Shown: in pieces, positions 14,547 through 29,401 of the stretch
How positions within the stretch are numbered: the first letter of the stretch is position 1
Layout: each line of letters starts with the position of its first letter
Virus record (IMG/VR): IMGVR_UViG_3300048918_000169
Location: 1 to 31,273 of that record
DNA from: a virus
DNA length: 31,273 bases
Reading direction: 5' to 3' (one strand)
Made by a program: the position numbers and the translations under genes
The notes under the pieces: generated by a model
Seen by the model: the letters and a program-made list of their open reading frames with translations, nothing else
Database searches by the model: none
Told to the model about the DNA's origin: nothing

Positions 14547-15688
14547 GCGAATATCTTCCTCGTTTTGGTGGTGTCGACCGGAACGAGCTTTGCTGATCCG
14601 GGTGGGTATGAAGCGTATTCCACAATGACGGACTCGTCAATCCCTAATTTCTTCGCCTGCGCGGGAGTGAGAACCGCCGGTTCCGTGGACTTGGCCAGAT
14701 CCTTGCCGAGCATCGCGCCGACCGCCAGCACCGTCTCGGCGGGAACGCTCCAGCGGCGATGCGGTCGCGTGTAGTCGATGCCGTAGTCCGCCAGGTGCGC
14801 GCCGGCCTGCAAGCGGTGCAATGCCTGTTGCTCCAAGCCGGTAATGCGCGACTCGAGCATGGCTTGGGCATAGTGCAGCGAGCGCAACTCGCGGGACAGC
14901 GCACGATCGTCTAGATCGACCGGCGTGGCGCGGCCTGACTCGTGGATGGAACGATACGCCGATTTCTGATTCGCCTCGCAGCGTCGACGGCCGACGCAAT
15001 CGCGGCACCATTCGCCGGCACGTCCTTCGCGTTGCGAGCTGAGTGCCCGCGTAGCCGCGCCGGCCAGTTCCGAGATATACGGGTGCAACTTATCGGCGGT
15101 AATCGTCCATGTGCGAATCGGGCCTTCGCTGGTATACGTGCGAGGCTGGACGATGTGCATCGTGATCGTGACGCGATGCCACTCGAGCGGTGGAATGCCT
15201 GATGCGTCGAGCACGCCGATGACGTAGAGCAGGAGTTGCCAGTTTTCGAATACCTCGACGAAGCGATGGCCGAACTTGTAGTCGAACAGGTGCAGGTGCC
15301 AAGGACCGTTGTCTTCGCCAAGCAAAATACGCGCATCGGGTGTCCCGTAGCATTGCTTATGCACACTCGGCACATGCACAAGCTGTTCGACGAGTAGCCA
15401 CATGCGCGAGCGAGCCGGCAGGGTATCGGTGATGTGCTCGGCGTAGGTCATCGACCCTTCGAGCATTTCATCCGTGACCGTCACGCCGTTATTCATCTGC
15501 GTGCCGACTGGAATTAGCTCGCCCGTCGTGAGCAGCTGAGCGGCGTGCGCATGCGCCGCATTGCCTTCCTTGTCCTCGTCGCCGTCGCGCAAGTCCTGCG
15601 TGATCGACGAGAGATGCGGCGCCAGGCCGCAATTGATCCACTCGTGCGCAGAGCTGGGCGCGAGGAATGCGTGATCGTGGTCGCTCAT
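14543..15688 (-). CDS. DUF2800 PD-(D/E)XK nuclease (Cas4/AddB-like)
   Basis: The 381-residue protein starts with HAFLAPSSAHEWINC, the DUF2800 N-terminal signature. It has EGNAAHAHA near 41-49, D118 in YGTPDARIL, DYK at 136-138 and the QLLLY helix after ENW, which together form the PD-(D/E)XK nuclease core. Cys20 and the cluster Cys228, Cys231 and Cys237 are placed like the four ligands of the Fe-S cluster in Cas4, AddB and Dna2. It probably trims DNA ends in recombination-dependent replication, next to SSB and polymerase. ATG at 15688 overlaps the preceding TGA; a 7-residue longer start exists. Confidence 0.88.
   Translation of the reverse strand: MSDHDHAFLAPSSAHEWINCGLAPHLSSITQDLRDGDEDKEGNAAHAHAAQLLTTGELIPVGTQMNNGVTVTDEMLEGSMTYAEHITDTLPARSRMWLLVEQLVHVPSVHKQCYGTPDARILLGEDNGPWHLHLFDYKFGHRFVEVFENWQLLLYVIGVLDASGIPPLEWHRVTITMHIVQPRTYTSEGPIRTWTITADKLHPYISELAGAATRALSSQREGRAGEWCRDCVGRRRCEANQKSAYRSIHESGRATPVDLDDRALSRELRSLHYAQAMLESRITGLEQQALHRLQAGAHLADYGIDYTRPHRRWSVPAETVLAVGAMLGKDLAKSTEPAVLTPAQAKKLGIDESVIVEYASYPPGSAKLVPVDTTKTRKIFA
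14612..14640 (-). promoter_or_regulatory. Promoter with TGACG-N4-CGTCA operator, for the SSB gene
   Basis: On the minus strand TTGACG (14640-14635), a 17-nt spacer and TACGCT (14617-14612) form a plausible but weak sigma-70 promoter. The exact palindrome TGACG-GACT-CGTCA (14626-14639) overlaps the -35 element. It lies inside the end of the nuclease gene, 66 nt before the SSB start. The -10 fits at 3 of 6 positions, so support comes mainly from the shared layout with the other operator copies. Confidence 0.45.
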
Positions 15689-16401: not shown

Positions 16402-17295
16402 TTACTTCTCCGTCAGCTCAGCGATCGTGAGCAGCTGGTTGAACTGGTCGAACAGATCCGGGCGGCTCTGCAACGACGGGAAGTCCGGCAAGCCGATCGA
16501 CTTCAGTGCGTTTTGCATATCCAGCACCATCCACTTGCCGACGCGCATCACTTCCTGCGTGCGCTTGACGAGCGCGCCGAACGTGACGCCGGGCGCAGCA
16601 GGAGCGGCCGGAAATACAGGCGGGGCGGCGTTCGGCGACGGAGGTGCGACCTGGGCTTCGGCGGTCACCGTCACGCGGTCACCGTTCCCGGGCGCCGGGT
16701 CGATCGTCACCGTTACCGGGCCGAAGACCGCGCCACGTGCAGCGCGTTGAGCCGCCTCGACCGTCTCCACCAACGTATCGGCCACACCGCGCTTGTAGCG
16801 CCACGTGCCGTCAGCGTTCTTGGTCTTCGTGCTGGCGTGGATGCGCTCGTCGTGCGTGTAGCCGTTGCGATCCGTTTCACCGGTCGAGGCAGGGGCCTGG
16901 GTAGCAACCGCAGGAGGCGCGGGCGGGGCAGGCGCCGCGACGGGCGGAGGCGGCGCTGAAGTAACCGGCGGAGCCGCGGGGGCAGTCGTGGACGTCTCGA
17001 CAGCCGCAGTGGAGGCGGCAGGACTCGACGCTTGCGCCAAAGGGATGTTGGTCGTGCTCCCGTCGCCGGTACCGAACAGGGTATGCGCGAGCGCAAGGTC
17101 TTCCTTGGCGCTGGAATCGACGCTGGGCAGTACAGCCGGCGCTTTGGTGACGGCACGTTCCAAATTCGTCACGACCACACTTGCGGCTTGCTCGACCTTC
17201 GTCTCGCCCAGGTGCATGAGCGCGGTGAGCTGAGCGATGTGCTTGGCCAGCTCCGTTTTGTCAAAGATATTTTCGATAACCAAGTGCGTCTGCAC
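16402..17295 (-). CDS. First leftward gene: unknown, with central disordered linker
   Basis: The 297-residue protein has a helical N-terminal part (about 1-75), a Pro/Ala/Thr-rich linker (about 88-138), then NGYTHDERIHASTKTKNADG and WRYKRGV, a short motif recurrent in phage proteins of unknown role, and a helical C-terminus. GTG start at 17295 with GGAG 7 nt upstream; it is the first gene of the leftward replication operon. The linker resembles that of the SSB. A role as replication accessory is inference from position only. Confidence 0.75.
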   Translation of the reverse strand: MQTHLVIENIFDKTELAKHIAQLTALMHLGETKVEQAASVVVTNLERAVTKAPAVLPSVDSSAKEDLALAHTLFGTGDGSTTNIPLAQASSPAASTAAVETSTTAPAAPPVTSAPPPPVAAPAPPAPPAVATQAPASTGETDRNGYTHDERIHASTKTKNADGTWRYKRGVADTLVETVEAAQRAARGAVFGPVTVTIDPAPGNGDRVTVTAEAQVAPPSPNAAPPVFPAAPAAPGVTFGALVKRTQEVMRVGKWMVLDMQNALKSIGLPDFPSLQSRPDLFDQFNQLLTIAELTEK

Positions 17296-22392: not shown

Positions 22393-24780
22393 ATGCAAGC
22401 GCTGCCTGCCGCTCTGGCGCCAATGGGTGCCTACAAACAGTTTCTCAATTACAAGCTGGTGCCGTCCGTCAAACAGCCGGGAAAGATGGACAAGTTTCCG
22501 GTGAACCCGTCGACGGGCGAGGTGTGCAATGCGCATGACCGCAATGCTTGGGCGTCGTTCGACGGTGCGGCGCAGGCCGGTTTGCTGCGTGGCCACGGTG
22601 TTGCCTTCGTCTTCGCTGACACCGACCCCTTCTGGTTTCTCGACATCGATGGTGCGTACGATGGAAACGATTGGAACGCTACCGCCAAGACTCTTTGCGC
22701 TGAGTTTGCAGGCTGCGCTATCGAAGTCTCCCAGTCTGGCCGCGGCCTACACATCTTTGGCTCGGGAGCTGTCCCCGAGCATGGCACGCGCAATCGGGCG
22801 CTCCATCTTGAGTTCTACCATCGCCTCCGGTTCGTCGCCCTTACCGGCACGCACGCCACTGGCAACGCCGCGCACACTCCGCACAACCTGACGCCGCTCG
22901 TCAATCGTTACTTCCCTCCGGGCAGCGACCAATCGACCGATGTGGGCGCGGATTGGTGGAGCATGGAGCCGGTACCGGAATGGAACGGCCCGCAGGACGA
23001 CGCCACGCTGCTCCAGCGGGCGTTGCGGAGCAAGAGCGCTGCCTCGGTATTCGGCGGCGACCGGGCGAGCTTTGCGGACCTCTGGGATGGCGACGAGGCG
23101 ATCTTGGCCAAGGCCTTCCCTGACGACAAACACCCCTACAATGCCTCGAGCGCGGACCAGGCGCTTGCGCAGCACCTAGCCTTCTGGACGGGCAAGAATG
23201 CCGAGCGCATTAAGACGCTGATGCTCGAGTCGGGCCTCGTGCGCGACAAGTGGGATCGGCGCGGCGATGACTACTTGGCGCGCACCATCCGCAAGGCCTG
23301 CGCATGGCAGAAAGACGTGCTGATCGACCCGCCACCGAGCGCCAGCCCGTTCGAGCAAGCGCTGAGCGATGTGCCGTTCAGCACCGAAGCGCTGCGGATC
23401 TCCGAGAAAACGCTGCTACAGCCCGACGAACAGGTGCAATTCTTCAAAGGCTGCGTCTACGTCGCCGACGAACACAAGATCATGGTACCGAACGGTGCGT
23501 TGGTCGACTCGTCGCGCTTCAATGCGTTGTACGGCGGCCGATCGTTCGTGATGGATGGCGGCAATACCCGCGTGGTCAAAAAGGCGTTCGAGGCCTTCAC
23601 CGAATCGCAGGTGTATCGCTTCCCGCGTGCTGACTCCACGTGCTTCCGTCCGCTCGAGACGCCCGGCGAGATCATTCGCGAGGCGGGCTTTACGCGCGTC
23701 AACGTGTACCGCCCGTGCGAGGTGAAGCGCGCCAAGGGCGACCCCGGCCGTTTCCTGCACCACCTGGCCAAGTTGATCCCCGACGAGCGCGATCGACAAA
23801 TCCTGCTCGGTTATATGGCGTGCGTGGTGCAATATCAGGGCCATAAGTTGCAGTGGGCGCCGTTACTCCAGTCGACCACGGGTACCGGCAAGGGCCTGAT
23901 CGGTATCGCGATCAAAAAGGCGATTGGCCGTCCGTTGTGCTACTCGCCGCGCGCTGAGGAAATCGGCAACAACTTCAACTTCTGGCTCACTGGCCACACG
24001 TTCTATTGCGTCGACGAGATCTACATCCCCGACAAGCGCACCGACTTGCTCGAGGTGCTCAAGCCGATGATTACCGGCGACGAGGAAGGGCAGGAAGTCA
24101 CGAAGAAAGGCGTTGACAGTGAGATGCGCGACACGTGCGGCAACTTCTGGTTCAACACCAATCACCAGAACGCACTCAAAAAGGATAAGCATGATCGTCG
24201 CATCGCTGAGTTCTTTATGGCTCAACAAGATCCTGATGACCTTATGCGTGATGGGCTCGACGCTGAGTACATCCTCGATCTTGTCGAATGGCTCAAAGGT
24301 TCGGGACGATACGCTGGCCATGCCTCGGGTTACAGCATCGTGGCCGAATACCTGTGGACGGTACCGATCGCGCGTGAGTTCGATCCGCGCAAAGACGTTC
24401 GCGCACCGAAAACCTCCAGCACGCAACGCGCGCTAGAAGTAGGTAAGGGACGCGTCGAACAGGAAGTGGCGGAACTGATCGCGATGGGCAACAGCGGCTT
24501 CCGCGGCGGATGGGTATCGTCGGCGGCCTTCCGCAATCTGCTGCGCGAGATGAAGATCAGCATTCCGCTGACGCGCCACCAAGAGATCCTGAAGTCGCTG
24601 GGATATATACCTCACCCTGCGCTGCCCGATGGCCGTGTGAACAATCCTGTGCTGCCTGACGGCACGCGTGTGCGGCTCTACGTCGACGTGCGTCAGGCGG
24701 ATCTGCTGACGATCAATGAACCGTCGCGCGTGGCGGAAGCATATAGCGCGGCGCAAGCGTTCTTACCTGGGAGTGTGTGA
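22393..24780 (+). CDS. PrimPol-helicase (AEP primase plus DUF5906/SF3-like ATPase)
   Basis: The 795-residue protein fuses a primase and a helicase. The N-terminal domain has archaeo-eukaryotic primase motifs: DID at 84-86 (FLDIDGAYDG), SQSGRGLH at 113-120 and FVALTG near 147-152, similar to the NrS-1-type phage primase-polymerase. The C-terminal part has Walker A TTGTGKG (495-501), Walker B CVDE (539-542), the NFWFNTN sensor (584-590) and the RR pair near 602, typical of DUF5906/virulence-E/SF3-like phage helicases. It would prime and unwind at the origin. GGGGGAATC precedes the ATG; the TGA overlaps the next ATG. Confidence 0.9.
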   Translation: MQALPAALAPMGAYKQFLNYKLVPSVKQPGKMDKFPVNPSTGEVCNAHDRNAWASFDGAAQAGLLRGHGVAFVFADTDPFWFLDIDGAYDGNDWNATAKTLCAEFAGCAIEVSQSGRGLHIFGSGAVPEHGTRNRALHLEFYHRLRFVALTGTHATGNAAHTPHNLTPLVNRYFPPGSDQSTDVGADWWSMEPVPEWNGPQDDATLLQRALRSKSAASVFGGDRASFADLWDGDEAILAKAFPDDKHPYNASSADQALAQHLAFWTGKNAERIKTLMLESGLVRDKWDRRGDDYLARTIRKACAWQKDVLIDPPPSASPFEQALSDVPFSTEALRISEKTLLQPDEQVQFFKGCVYVADEHKIMVPNGALVDSSRFNALYGGRSFVMDGGNTRVVKKAFEAFTESQVYRFPRADSTCFRPLETPGEIIREAGFTRVNVYRPCEVKRAKGDPGRFLHHLAKLIPDERDRQILLGYMACVVQYQGHKLQWAPLLQSTTGTGKGLIGIAIKKAIGRPLCYSPRAEEIGNNFNFWLTGHTFYCVDEIYIPDKRTDLLEVLKPMITGDEEGQEVTKKGVDSEMRDTCGNFWFNTNHQNALKKDKHDRRIAEFFMAQQDPDDLMRDGLDAEYILDLVEWLKGSGRYAGHASGYSIVAEYLWTVPIAREFDPRKDVRAPKTSSTQRALEVGKGRVEQEVAELIAMGNSGFRGGWVSSAAFRNLLREMKISIPLTRHQEILKSLGYIPHPALPDGRVNNPVLPDGTRVRLYVDVRQADLLTINEPSRVAEAYSAAQAFLPGSV

Positions 24781-25004
24781 TGGCAGACCTCAAGCAGTGC
24801 GACACGTGCGGCGTCATATCGCCTAACAACAAAGGTGAGTACATCGCCAATCATTGGACGACAATGCGCGTCGTCTACGCTGAAGGGTTGCGCAGTAGCC
24901 GAACGACGGACTTCCTCGTGTGCTGTGACTGCATAGCGCGTGGCGTCAAAGTTTCGGATACTTCCGGCTACCCGCCGCACAAAGCGATTTTGGTCGCCGA
25001 TTGA
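24780..25004 (+). CDS. Small zinc-ribbon protein
   Basis: The 74-residue product contains CDTC (8-11) and CCDC (about 48-51) separated by a polar stretch, a zinc-ribbon pattern. The ATG overlaps the PrimPol stop (TGATG); a GTG at 24777 would add one residue. The end of the frame runs through the first iteron-like repeat. Unknown function; last gene of the rightward unit. Confidence 0.7.
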   Translation: MADLKQCDTCGVISPNNKGEYIANHWTTMRVVYAEGLRSSRTTDFLVCCDCIARGVKVSDTSGYPPHKAILVAD

Positions 25005-25112
25005 AACCTCGTTGCACAAAGCGATTTTGGTTTTTGCCCAAAAATTGAGGGCTCGACGCACATTTGGATTTTGGTCCGCGCGGGAAATCGCGTTGCACAA
25101 AACCGAATTGGT
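24977..25112 (+). repeat. Four 18-bp iteron-like direct repeats
   Basis: Repeats of the form GCACAAAGCGATTTTGGT lie at 24977-24994 and 25014-25031 (identical), 25058-25075 (14 of 18) and 25095-25112 (13 of 18). Start-to-start distances are 37, 44 and 37 nt. They lie directly after the PrimPol-helicase gene, with an AT-rich patch (TTTTTGCCCAAAAATT) between copies two and three. This resembles an iteron-type replication origin. The spacers are too short and unequal for CRISPR. Confidence 0.65.
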
Positions 25113-25121
25113 GTCGAGCCC
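25049..25121. repeat. Inverted repeat framing the last two iteron-like copies
   Basis: GGGCTCGAC (25049-25057) immediately precedes repeat three and its exact complement GTCGAGCCC (25113-25121) immediately follows repeat four, making a symmetric block of 73 nt. It could fold into a long imperfect hairpin. T-rich tracts on either side (TTTCTC after it; TCAATTTTT on the minus strand) would also suit a bidirectional terminator between convergent operons. From 25122 to 25252 no gene is seen, only short CCTGGCC/GGCCA repeats. Confidence 0.55.
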
Positions 25122-25252
25122 TTTCTCGTGGTGCAACACGTCCTGGCCGTCCCTGGCCACGTCCATTCTGTTGCGTAGCGGCATGCCTGCTAGGGCTGTG
25201 AAACGCTGTAATGCAACACCCATCCGCCGCGAAGTTCGACGGTAGTTTTGCC

Positions 25253-25417
25253 TTATACCTCAGTAGCCATTCGCTCTAGCGCATGCTCGCGTTCACATAG
25301 TCTAGGTAGCGCCCACGATGCCAAAGCATCCGCCTGTTTGCGCGTTACCTGTACGCGTTCAAGACGGAAACACCCGTGACGGATGCGCGGTCTATCCCGC
25401 TCGATATAGAAGCCCAT
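25253..25417 (-). CDS. Small unknown protein, end of leftward cluster
   Basis: The 54-residue basic protein (MGFYIERDRPRIRHGCFRLE...) is unrecognised. The ATG at 25417 has AAGGGAG upstream and follows the double-hairpin element at 25431-25482. It is the last gene of the leftward cluster. Confidence 0.5.
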   Translation of the reverse strand: MGFYIERDRPRIRHGCFRLERVQVTRKQADALASWALPRLCEREHALERMATEV

Positions 25418-25430
25418 ACTAGGCTCCCTT

Positions 25431-25482
25431 GTTGCGTGCCAGTCGCACGGCAAAGCGCACCGCTAGGATGCGCTTCACGCTG
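25431..25482 (-). terminator. Double-hairpin terminator element, copy 1
   Basis: On the minus strand, AAGCGCA/TGCGCTT (7-bp stem, 25475-25453) ends in a T run (TTT), then a second hairpin CGTGC-GACTG-GCACG (25449-25435) follows. It lies just after a gene stop and just before the next start. The first 24 bases of the plus strand (25431 on) are identical to those of the copy at 25960. Confidence 0.65.
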
Positions 25483-25489
25483 TTACCGG

Positions 25490-25684
25490 CTAATCGCGCA
25501 TTGCCCGCAGCTCAATGGCGCTTTCAAAAGCGCGTTCGGACCAAAATGCGGCACGTTCGCGCCATCCTTCGGCGTCTGCTGACAGCGACATACTTTCCGC
25601 ATGTTCAGCACATCGTAGATACGCCTCGCATGCCCGTCCGTATTGGGCAATGGCGGTTTCCCATATTTCTCGGCGTGTCTTCAC
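25490..25684 (-). CDS. Small unknown helical protein
   Basis: The 64-residue product MKTRREIWETAIAQYGRACEAYLRCAEHAE... is predicted all-helical with repeated Ala/Glu/Arg. The start is GTG overlapping the previous TGA (GTGA). No family recognised. A double-hairpin terminator follows its stop. Confidence 0.55.
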   Translation of the reverse strand: MKTRREIWETAIAQYGRACEAYLRCAEHAESMSLSADAEGWRERAAFWSERAFESAIELRAMRD

Positions 25685-25944
25685 GTGGTCGCCTCCCTAG
25701 GTGGATACTCGCCGCGACTAGGGCACAACGGCCGGAGCGGCACGTCCTCGTCACGTGGGTTGTAACGAATAAGGGTGTCATCATCGATACGCACCACGCC
25801 GAGCGGATTAGCGCGGAGCATGGCGAGCGTTTCGGCCACGCTGGCAACGTGCGGGCGTAGCAGTTTCTCCGCGTTGATGTGGGCGCACGCGGTAATGCGT
25901 AACTTGCGCTTCGATTGGCGCAAGAGTTCAAAGGTACCGGCCAT
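25681..25944 (-). CDS. Small unknown protein
   Basis: The 87-residue product begins MAGTFELLRQSKRKLRITAC and contains a helix followed by strands (LGVVRIDDDTLIRYNPRDED). It is not recognised. GGAG lies about 10 nt before the ATG. The gene starts about 15 nt after double-hairpin copy 2 and overlaps the next gene by 4 nt. Confidence 0.6.
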   Translation of the reverse strand: MAGTFELLRQSKRKLRITACAHINAEKLLRPHVASVAETLAMLRANPLGVVRIDDDTLIRYNPRDEDVPLRPLCPSRGEYPPREATT

Positions 25945-25959
25945 CGGCGCGGCTCCGGT

Positions 25960-26010
25960 GTTGCGTGCCAGTCGCACGGCAAAACGCCCCGTTAGGGGCG
26001 CTTCACGCTG
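25960..26010 (-). terminator. Double-hairpin terminator element, copy 2
   Basis: On the minus strand AAGCGCCCC-TAAC-GGGGCGTTTT (26003-25981) is a strong rho-independent terminator (6 GC pairs plus A-T and G-T extension). The hairpin CGTGC-GACTG-GCACG (25978-25964) follows. It sits 6 nt after the stop of the 122-residue gene. Relative to copy 1, both arms of the first stem changed together so that pairing is kept. Confidence 0.8.
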
Positions 26011-26016
26011 AGACTG

Positions 26017-26385
26017 TTAGCGGTAGTAACGCAGACCGTCACTCGCGACAAGCCAGCGTTTCGCAATGCGCGTGCCTTCGTGACAGCATTCGTCTATGTC
26101 GAAGTCGCGGTAATGCGTCGCGCCTTCACCGAAGCGCAACTCCGCAGCGGTAGGAGGCCTGTGATACGTGATCGATTCGACGTCGTCACGCACCTGGAGA
26201 ATGCCCAGCGCCTTGCATACCTCGCCAAATGAGCCGATCCAGTACCAGCGCTTATTAGCGTTCAATCCCCACACTTGCGCGCCGCCTATCGCGCGCTCAT
26301 CGGCGTTAGCGGGCTGGCGGATTGCAACGGCCCGCGGTGAGCCATAGGCGCGGCGGATACGTTCGCGGATTTGTGCCATGCTCAT
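26017..26385 (-). CDS. Unknown 122-residue protein
   Basis: The protein starts MSMAQIRERIRRAYGSPRAV and has an AQVWGLNANKRWYWIGSFGEVCKAL segment and an acidic CC-containing part (DFDIDECCHEG). No family is recognised. Starts at 26385 or 26379 are both possible; the first lies 1 nt after the upstream stop. Followed by terminator copy 2. Confidence 0.65.
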   Translation of the reverse strand: MSMAQIRERIRRAYGSPRAVAIRQPANADERAIGGAQVWGLNANKRWYWIGSFGEVCKALGILQVRDDVESITYHRPPTAAELRFGEGATHYRDFDIDECCHEGTRIAKRWLVASDGLRYYR

Positions 26386-26386
26386 A

Positions 26387-26728
26387 TCAGCTCACCTTCA
26401 CCAGTTCGCACCAATACCCCTTTAGAAACGCCTCAAGGCTGGCGTATTTGCGCACGCATGAACGCTCCGCAGTGGACGCCCAGCTAGGCGCAATGCAGTT
26501 AAGAGCATCGCTCAGCACGCGAGGCGTGATGTCGTGCGCGATATGAAAGCCAGTGCCTACGGTGCGGTCAGCCATGTGCACGCTGGACACGCTAACGCGG
26601 TCGCGCCACTGAGCATATGCGATGCGTTCGCCGTCCGTGTAGAAACACCACTTGTCCTCCGGCTTGCGCATATAGGCGGTAAAGCCAGCGGCGAGAATTA
26701 TCGCGAGGTACGGGTCAGGGTGAGACAT
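26387..26728 (-). CDS. Unknown 113-residue protein
   Basis: The product begins MSHPDPYLAIILAAGFTAYM and has a beta-rich middle (CFYTDGERIAYAQWRDRVSV) and a helical end. The sequence suggests a small soluble domain but matches no family I know. On the minus strand GGAATTCCTGCC lies before the ATG. The next gene starts 1 nt after its stop. Confidence 0.65.
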   Translation of the reverse strand: MSHPDPYLAIILAAGFTAYMRKPEDKWCFYTDGERIAYAQWRDRVSVSSVHMADRTVGTGFHIAHDITPRVLSDALNCIAPSWASTAERSCVRKYASLEAFLKGYWCELVKVS

Positions 26729-26774
26729 GGCAGGAATTCCTTAACGTAGTGAATGAGTGTGGACGGCTAGACGG

Positions 26775-26939
26775 TTACAGCGCGTGGCGCAGCGCGAACG
26801 CAGCGGCGAAGATAAACACCGCGACGAACGCCACGACGGGCCATGGCGATTTGCGCGGCTTGCTCAGACTCGCGACGATTTGCGGGGCGCACGTTGCGCC
26901 AACGTGGAACGGGTAGGGGTGACGGTCGCGACGGCTCAT
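26775..26939 (-). CDS. Small tail-anchored membrane protein
   Basis: This 54-residue product, too short for a usual cutoff, reads MSRRDRHPYPFHVGATCAPQ... and ends with a membrane helix (WPVVAFVAVFIFAAAFAL) and a short basic tail (RHAL). Its ATG overlaps the stop of the upstream gene (ATGA), which supports translation. Unknown function. Confidence 0.6.
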   Translation of the reverse strand: MSRRDRHPYPFHVGATCAPQIVASLSKPRKSPWPVVAFVAVFIFAAAFALRHAL

Positions 26940-27133
26940 GCGATCATCTCAAACAAGTCTGCATCGCCGTCAATGGTCGCTTCCCCACAAAGCGGGTCGC
27001 CGTTAGGCGTAGCGCCGAAATTCACGTCTGCGCAATCGATAACGCTGTTTAGAATGTCGCGAGCCTCGCGTTCGCTATTCGCCTCAACGCGAACGGCGCA
27101 GATAACTTTGATGTCAAAAGCGTAAGTAGCCAC
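26936..27133 (-). CDS. Small beta-alpha-beta phage protein
   Basis: The 65-residue product (ATYAFDIKVICAVRVEANSE...) has the pattern of a strand, a helix EREARDILNSVI, and an acidic end with GDPLCGEATIDGDADLFEMI. Similar short proteins occur in many phages without known role. A GTG at 27133 is chosen as start because longer frames would run through the upstream gene; the ribosome site is weak. Confidence 0.6.
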   Translation of the reverse strand: MATYAFDIKVICAVRVEANSEREARDILNSVIDCADVNFGATPNGDPLCGEATIDGDADLFEMIA

Positions 27134-27630: not shown

Positions 27631-27782
27631 TATACGGCCCCTTTGTTTAGGCGATTGGCGAGCGCTTCGGCGCACTTGCGGCCATAGCGTGTGGGGAAAT
27701 ACCAAACTTGCGACGACGCGCACCACACGGCCCAGCGATGGCGCTGCGTTTCGGTGTCGTAATACTTGCCTACGCTAAACAT
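27630..27782 (-). CDS. Small unknown protein, first after operator promoter
   Basis: This 50-residue gene reads MFSVGKYYDTETQRHRWAVW..., with an aromatic-rich middle (SSQVWYFPTRYGRK) and a basic end. The ATG lies 26 nt downstream of the -10 of the promoter at 27808-27836, and the stop overlaps the next ATG. It is the first gene of that transcription unit; function unknown. Confidence 0.65.
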   Translation of the reverse strand: MFSVGKYYDTETQRHRWAVWCASSQVWYFPTRYGRKCAEALANRLNKGAV

Positions 27783-27807
27783 GTGGTCAGACTCCAGAGT
27801 GACGTGG

Positions 27808-27836
27808 ATTGTCGGTTAGATTGACGATTGCGTCAA
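27808..27836 (-). promoter_or_regulatory. Promoter with perfect 16-bp palindromic operator
   Basis: On the minus strand TTGACG (27836-27831), 17 nt, GACAAT (27813-27808; 4 of 6) forms a promoter for the leftward genes from 27782. The operator TTGACG-ATTG-CGTCAA (27821-27836) is the most symmetric of the family and covers the -35. Confidence 0.65.
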
Positions 27837-27856
27837 TGTGTGACGCGGCGGGTAAG

Positions 27857-28102
27857 TTAGTTGAAATACCCCTCGCCTTCCGCCCACTCATACAACTTGT
27901 ACTCAAGCAGGCGACGCGAGTCGCTTTTGGTGATCGTGTTAGCGATGGTCAGCACGTACTCTCCGTTGCCGTCCACCTCGATATAAAGCCCGTGGGCGTA
28001 GACATAGCCCGGCACGCCCTTGAGCGCGTCATCACGGATAACCGCGTCGTCGCCGATGGATGCGGTATAGGTAGCGGTTTTGCGCCAGTCGTGGAGTCGC
28101 AT
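27857..28102 (-). CDS. Unknown 81-residue protein
   Basis: The product starts MRLHDWRKTATYTASIGDDA, contains a beta-rich middle (GLYIEVDGNGEYVLTIANTI) and ends LYEWAEGEGYFN. No family recognised. It lies directly upstream of the operator promoter, so transcription from 28811 may run into that site. Confidence 0.65.
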   Translation of the reverse strand: MRLHDWRKTATYTASIGDDAVIRDDALKGVPGYVYAHGLYIEVDGNGEYVLTIANTITKSDSRRLLEYKLYEWAEGEGYFN

Positions 28103-28199: not shown

Positions 28200-28251
28200 G
28201 GCGGCGTGCTCCGGTGAGTTAGTGCTGAGATGAATGCAAGGCGCGTGCCAA

Positions 28252-28842: not shown

Positions 28843-28859
28843 TGCAACCCCCGTGCCAA
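28843..28859 (-). promoter_or_regulatory. Sigma-54 (RpoN) type -24/-12 promoter
   Basis: Minus strand: TTGGCACGGGGGTTGCA matches the consensus YTGGCACGRNNNTTGCW at every fixed position, with the GG and GC pairs 10 nt apart as required. It faces the 118-residue gene, and the expected start of transcription falls just before its ribosome site. Confidence 0.65.
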
Positions 28860-29401
28860 CTGTCCGCACCGCGCTAGATAGCCACGCTGACGCACCAGGT
28901 AGCGCTAAGTAGGCGTCGCATTGCGTCACTTAGTGACACACGTGCGCACGTTGTGACGTAGCGCGGCAGGCGTGCCCCAGGCAAGGCTAGGCACGTATCG
29001 CATCACCCGCACCAGCAATGCCAGCGCTACAGCGTGCGCTGCGATCCGTCGTGCTCGCTCCACTGCGTTACGTCCAGCACCAGCGCTGTCCAGGTCGCTC
29101 CAGGCGCACGCTTGAGCGTGGATGCGCTAGACGTATCGATCCAGCACGCTACAAACCGTTACGAATCAATGCGTTAGCGCATCATAAAGCGCTCGTCATG
29201 CGGCGGTGCACAACGGTCGCTCGGCCAGGGCGTGGGGGTGGGTGCAAAGTTCGTGCCAAAACCGCAGCGGACCGCGCGGGTGCCTTTTTTCACATGTCCG
29301 CAGTTCAAAAGTTCGCAAAATATGAACTAACGGACGCAGCAAAAACGCCCAACGTTGCCGCCAGGCGCTTGTTTTGCGCGTGAGTTGGACGATCGGGGCG
29401 G
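28860..29401. other. Palindrome-rich non-coding region
   Basis: No convincing gene is seen in this 542-nt stretch. It holds a nested palindrome (28924-28958: CGTCAC ... GTGACG around GTCACTTAGTGAC and CGTGCGCACG). It also has a CGTGCC/GGCACG hairpin (28971-28995), an ATGCG-TTAG-CGCAT hairpin (29169-29182) and a GTCCG.AGTTC/GAACT..CGGAC hairpin (29296-29335). The layout suggests a control or replication region. An Arg-rich forward frame here (29018-29383) is probably spurious. Confidence 0.5.

Follow-up and report, generated by a model that had tools for sequence, protein, structure and literature searches.

A putative and apparently undescribed two-hairpin RNA element between the genes of a few related phages

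In the DNA of a virus from IMG/VR (record IMGVR_UViG_3300048918_000169), whose analysed stretch of 31,273 bases we call the window, we find two copies of what appears to be a genuine and apparently undescribed structured RNA element, here named E, with a function that we infer from its sequence and position. E is shared by a few related phages, where it stands at the junctions between genes. Six homologous copies in four phages have compensated pairing, a constant geometry relative to the start codon and no conserved U-run.

Two copies between small genes

The window has a run of minus-strand small genes that begins at about 30 kb and ends near 25.2 kb, where it meets the plus-strand replication genes. 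Two minus-strand copies of the element, E1 (25418-25489) and E2 (25945-26016), lie in this run and, as delimited by stop and start geometry, self-match and covariance search, each occupies the complete 72-nt gap between the stop codon of one gene (TAG for E1, TAA for E2) and the ATG of the next. Both consist, in order, of hairpin 1, hairpin 2 without a spacer, CAACA, the Shine-Dalgarno sequence GGAG and the start codon. Folding predicts 12 pairs for hairpin 1 in either copy, as GUGAAGCGCAUC-CUAGC-GGUGCGCUUUGC in E1 (25450-25478, minus) and GUGAAGCGCCCC-UAAC-GGGGCGUUUUGC in E2 (25979-26006, minus). Hairpin 2, which the first-pass annotation had described as fixed in both copies (CGTGC-GACTG-GCACG), is indeed identical in the two: by sequence and folding, CGUGC-GACUG-GCACG stands at 25435-25449, abutting hairpin 1 of E1, and at 25964-25978 in E2 (both minus). 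The GGAG lies 7 nt past hairpin 2 in each case (25424-25427 and 25953-25956, minus), as placed by comparing the geometry of the copies.

According to the gene list, the gene before E2 (26017-26385, minus; 122 amino acids) belongs to PHROG 38643, of unknown function, and no family is assigned to the gene after E2 (25681-25944, minus; 87 amino acids), the gene before E1 (25490-25684, minus; 64 amino acids) or the gene after E1 (25253-25417, minus; 54 amino acids). Self-BLAST aligns E1 and E2 at 88.5% identity over 61 columns with one gap (E 2.3e-13), the sole repeat of such kind listed for the window, and GTGCGACTGGCAC occurs in the window only twice. The first-pass annotation had placed both copies where we find them, and they read on the minus strand; the identical run it had reported is real and spans 25 bases, TGTTGCGTGCCAGTCGCACGGCAAA (25430-25454 in E1), instead of 24.

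Homologues in related phages

The primase gene of the window (22393-24780) leads to a sister phage, IMGVR_UViG_3300048918_000255 (G001; 37,434 bases), with a primase that is 98% identical. G001 retains both copies in place: its E2 is the same as that of the window through GGAG, and its E1 differs in one loop base and in the bases preceding GGAG. E1 belongs to an island of 68 bp with 95.6% identity between the two phages. The gene that follows E1 cannot be aligned (best blastp E 0.16 over 14 residues), and the preceding gene retains 32-35% identity. The junction thus persists while the genes on either side of it are exchanged or diverge. An earlier suggestion that the unit is a mobile or copied module separating small genes stands as regards a copied module between small genes, but 'mobile' is too strong, because E1 stays put while the next gene is replaced and the preceding one is so divergent; the pattern could reflect recombination at a conserved junction.

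For homologues further afield, we took the best 80 of 521 related primase loci from an alignment-based search and ran a covariance model trained on the four copies of the window and G001 (R1) over 85 sources, equivalent to 83 distinct records. R1 finds a fifth copy in the record L023 (14006-14069, minus) with 32.5 bits and E 6.1e-6, the next unrelated match reaching 14.8 bits. The element of L020 (14241-14306, minus) scores only 12.7 bits (E 3.7) with this model, and we accept it as a sixth copy because it resembles the L023 element (83% identity over 60 nt, E 2.9e-10) and occupies the same kind of position. Both are minus-strand copies past the primase gene, set in stop-to-start gaps of 74 and 77 nt, and the primases of these phages are 53% (L023) and 54% (L020) identical to that of the window. 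The further copies in relatives, for which a covariance model search had been proposed with the original observation, were found in G001 and L023, and in L020 by likeness to L023. The total is six copies in 4 of the 83 records, many of which are partial, so that misses do not prove absence. A model trained on all six copies (R2), whose scores for those copies are circular, yielded no seventh at E below 1 over the 85 sources.

Pattern searches in IMG/VR with the exact core matched the contig of G001 only, and three extra contigs from a pattern search were judged chance matches after inspection. A host origin was also rejected: genome contigs contain 18 stretches of TTTGCCGTGCN{3,8}GCACGCAAC, none with hairpin 1 and a Shine-Dalgarno sequence, and we read them as chance. 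A loose pattern returned at least 120 stretches; inspection of the 79 new loci listed showed a complementary third pair at 35, with a Shine-Dalgarno-plus-start string at 2 of the 35, and an abutting hairpin 1 was seen at none of the 79.

L023 (13583-13667, minus) and L020 (13720-13803, minus) also share a second intergenic hairpin, S2, which is 80% identical between them and follows the gene located after E. S2 was considered as a paralogue of E and dropped; it folds as one long nested hairpin.

Compensatory changes and folding

With the gap put in the loop, hairpin 1 of E1 and E2 differs by one two-sided pair change (A-U to C-G) and two one-sided changes (G-C to G-U and U-G to C-G), whereas an automatic alignment of the four close copies, in which the gap falls inside the stem, counts zero two-sided changes. 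The initial claim that both arms of this stem had changed together holds in that pairing is kept with one two-sided change, and finds no counterpart on the automatic alignment; the covariation between E1 and E2 within one genome is real but thin.

The distant copies add to this. Between the window and L023, all nine aligned pairs of hairpin 1 still pair and four of them have changed on both sides, a degree of pairing that a shuffled L023 5' arm matches in 40 of 200,000 trials. One of the five pairs of hairpin 2 has likewise changed on both sides (CGUGC/GCACG to CGGGC/GCCCG), with a loop change from GACUG to GACUU, and hairpin 1 of L020 pairs at only seven of nine aligned positions. Hairpin 2 and the preceding GCC form the most conserved part across the four phages. 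The functional RNA structure that had been proposed from the two window copies is hence backed by covariation across phages.

Folding energy alone is weak evidence for structure: relative to shuffles, z is -3.2 for E1 and -2.7 for E2 when downstream sequence is included, -1.75 and -2.54 for the trimmed window copies, and -1.2 to -3.1 over the trimmed elements. A permissive scan for two hairpins followed by a Shine-Dalgarno sequence and a start codon gave 183 cases, compared with 155 in shuffles, so the bare architecture is unremarkable and the case for E rests on homology, compensation and position.

Sequence features around the element

A sigma70-type promoter scan gave no match at E. A sigma54-like promoter within E was also considered and rejected, with the -24 part TGGCACG present and the -12 part TTGC missing. 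Exact copies of TGGCACGN4TTGCW, which we take to be the sigma54-type promoter consensus, occur on the minus strand of the window at 29243-29258, 28843-28858 and 28235-28250, in G001 at 2003, 2407, 3001 and 4091, and in L023 at 15902 and 15603, mostly some tens of bases ahead of small genes on the minus strand; among the records scanned, exact matches were confined to these three. The window count of 3 compares with 0.01 expected in shuffles, and that of 4 in L013 with 0.02. No sigma54 activator domain (PF00158) was found in the records of the window, G001 and L023, and in the literature searched we recognised no phage with such sigma54-type early promoters. Between two of the sigma54-like motifs, about 380 nt of the window (28860-29240, minus) have no obvious gene and are well conserved in the sister phage, possibly as a noncoding RNA. 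A 78-bp island at 27780-27857 (minus), 96% identical in G001, carries a TTGACGCAATCGTCAA dyad and a sigma70-like match and is flanked by genes that are not the same in the two phages.

The window has iteron-like repeats (GCTCGACGCACATTTGGATTTTGGTC and variants) at 24973-25112, just past the primase gene, as do L020 (12622-12755), L022 (3263-3390), L023 (12561-12844) and L041 (12817-12931), and these are a possible replication origin. Stenotrophomonas phage B2 (L015) has a duplicated cassette downstream of its primase homologue (14678-14745 and 17149-17216), composed of a terminator-like stem with a U-run and a sigma70-type promoter. L033, L035, L037 and other records contain repeated promoter-like modules with a palindrome, for example TAGATAAATAATTTATCTA, between or beside the -35 and -10 boxes; a TetR-like protein, annotated in L015 and L016, is encoded near the primase and might use such palindromes as operators.

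Possible functions

The six copies fill stop-to-start gaps of 68-77 nt, and in all of them the end of hairpin 2 lies at a nearly fixed distance from the start codon (17, 19, 20, 20, 19 and 18 nt) and from the Shine-Dalgarno sequence (7, 7, 7, 7, 9 and 6 nt). A position 17-20 nt before the start codon is approximately the upstream edge of an initiating ribosome. Mainly because of this constant distance, we prefer a role in translation or leader processing, and tentatively, at somewhat less than an even chance, we regard E as an RNA leader acting in cis, which punctuates the operon of minus-strand small genes and most likely affects translation of the downstream gene. RNA would be the acting form, translation its target and alternative pairing its presumed means: E would act on the mRNA of the junction, leaving the downstream gene coupled to, or insulated from, the upstream gene. 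Ribosomes finishing the upstream gene would mask stop-codon bases that are able to pair with the hairpin-2 loop, and the two-hairpin form would be made; without the masking ribosomes, a single long nested hairpin would form and hairpin 2 would be lost. Among the points against the leader reading are that a gap of this size is long for coupling by reinitiation and that neither predicted form consistently buries the Shine-Dalgarno sequence.

The alternative pairing comes from folding with flanks. Once the 15-nt hairpin 2 is folded together with 45 nt of upstream and 8 nt of downstream sequence, its predicted probability falls from 1.00 to 0.00-0.35 in all six copies, and it reaches up to 0.63 with other flank lengths. 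In the long nested hairpin predicted to replace it, the hairpin-2 loop is paired to bases at the stop codon of the upstream gene or directly behind it, as GCCGGU:ACUGGC in E1 (25485-25490, minus, at the stop codon), CAGUC:GACUG in E2 (26012-26016, minus, just past the stop codon and complementary to the entire loop), AAGU:ACUU in L023, and GCAG plus UC in L020. The stop-codon flank differs among these four copies, and in each it is nonetheless able to pair with the conserved region of the loop. The displacement of hairpin 2 is not significant, random genomic flanks doing equally well in 129 (window E1), 151 (window E2), 14 (G001 E1), 142 (G001 E2), 170 (L023) and 182 (L020) of 1000 cases. The loop-to-flank pairing, assessed for five copies, was matched by random genomic flanks in 24/600 cases for window E1, 0/600 for window E2, 26/600 for G001 E1, 31/600 for L023 and 29/600 for L020; Fisher's method over window E1, window E2, L023 and L020 gives about 1e-4, with 0/600 taken as 1/600. 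Because we settled on this statistic with the folds already in view, and because L023 and L020 are relatives of one another, the switch is a lead only, a post hoc result that suggests a ribosome-gated switch at gene junctions. That E is a portable two-state RNA switch, through which the downstream gene would report on upstream translation and new small genes would be allowed on either side, seems to us possible but doubtful.

Other readings of the same features have to be weighed. The first-pass annotation had called the unit a terminator, and stem 1 is indeed a GC-rich hairpin in all six copies, followed directly by TTTT in the E2 of the window, TTT in its E1 and no U-run in L023 and L020. 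The window E2 reaches a d-score of +27.7, against +18.8 for a stem of phage B2, and weak termination could occur there; the scores are -2.6 for E1 of the window and of G001, -32 for L023 and -39 for L020, a terminator scan lists neither window copy, and the U-run of the window is predicted to pair within stem 1. We therefore reject termination as the shared function, and consider it quite unlikely that E is an intrinsic terminator or attenuator that reduces read-through into the last genes of the operon. An antitermination RNA acting in cis is a further reading, after HK022 put, in which two adjacent stem-loops modify RNA polymerase. The resemblance lies in two abutting stem-loops present twice in one phage operon, but E2 follows the nearest exact sigma54-like motif only after about 2.2 kb, the copies keep a constant distance at ribosome sites, and E1 has little downstream of it ahead of the convergent region; we hold this reading to be very improbable.

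It is unlikely, though less remote, that E is a site of mRNA processing or stability, its stacked hairpins being cut by RNase III or guiding RNase E, so that each small gene would gain a protected 5' end and the preceding gene a protected 3' end. T7-style processing between early genes is an established precedent, the hairpins abut directly and occupy the gap between genes, and stem 1 has its 12 predicted pairs in the window; however, its main helix is only nine pairs long in L023 and interrupted in L020, and RNase III would presumably need neither the fixed loop GACU nor the fixed distance to the start codon. The conservation of hairpin 2 with its GCC would also suit a binding site for an RNA- or DNA-binding regulator, either as an operator near the ribosome site or as a palindromic site that a repressor would bind, for instance the TetR-like protein of the phage, and a palindromic DNA site would likewise change symmetrically in both halves. 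E has no recognisable promoter, however, the six copies share one orientation relative to the start codon, and hairpin 1 pairs despite its changed sequence, which fits RNA better; we hold the regulator reading to be improbable.

Relation to known elements

Rfam 15 gave no match with E-values up to 1 in positions 24600-27000 of the window, and none at gathering score for the window, L013 and L023. Among 50,697 phage records, no match was obtained for window positions 24600-27000 in a near search, for 25400-26040 in a distant search or for the L023 element region in a distant search, and nothing that our searches of open-licence papers brought up was recognised as E. With neither an Rfam nor an isolated-phage match in the regions searched, E is apparently undescribed.

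Nearest in spirit, by analogy, are the SAS/ESAS elements of mycobacteriophages and the PeSL cassettes of T4-type phages. SAS/ESAS, whose function is unproven, are repeated elements with inverted repeats directly upstream of start codons, as E is in front of several genes, and sit before a subset of non-structural genes, kept with differing gene families. Each ESAS is an imperfect inverted repeat of 17 bp associated with a 13-bp motif, GGGATAGGAGCCC, and a genome has 11-19 of them, whereas E has another sequence, two abutting hairpins and one or two copies, and the stop-to-start sequences of all six copies lack the 13-bp motif before the start codon. PeSL cassettes, reportedly described by Arbiol and colleagues in 2010, are said to combine an early promoter with a terminator-like stem-loop. 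Like these cassettes, E is a conserved intergenic module between small genes where genes are exchanged, as the 68-bp island between an unalignable and a diverged gene exemplifies; unlike them, it has no recognisable promoter beside the stem-loop, given the missing sigma70-type match and -12 part, and no conserved U-run.

The T4/RB69 gene 43 translational operator (PMC3014915) is, like E, a hairpin with a conserved loop upstream of a ribosome binding site, but a single hairpin that serves one gene and is bound by the product of that gene, whereas E occurs in front of unrelated genes and includes another hairpin, which is variable. Coupling by RNA unfolding, for example in MS2 coat-lysis and rpmI-rplT (PMC12548453), shares with the model for E a terminating ribosome that would alter RNA structure ahead of the following gene, and the rpmI-rplT spacing of +52 nt is near the gap of E. 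Known cases hide the ribosome site itself, whereas the predicted switch of E would alter the structure just upstream, and the same element E recurs at several gene pairs.

Discussion

E looks like a control element rather than a simple stop signal, and its history illustrates that a copied 'terminator' in one genome can prove, once homologues are known, to be another kind of element. Where a phage carries many small genes open to exchange, correct expression of each newcomer calls for some rule. If our reading is true, an RNA module that spans the whole stop-to-start interval and outlasts the replacement of its neighbours would be such a rule, and would help both to find small phage genes and to build insulators for gene junctions.
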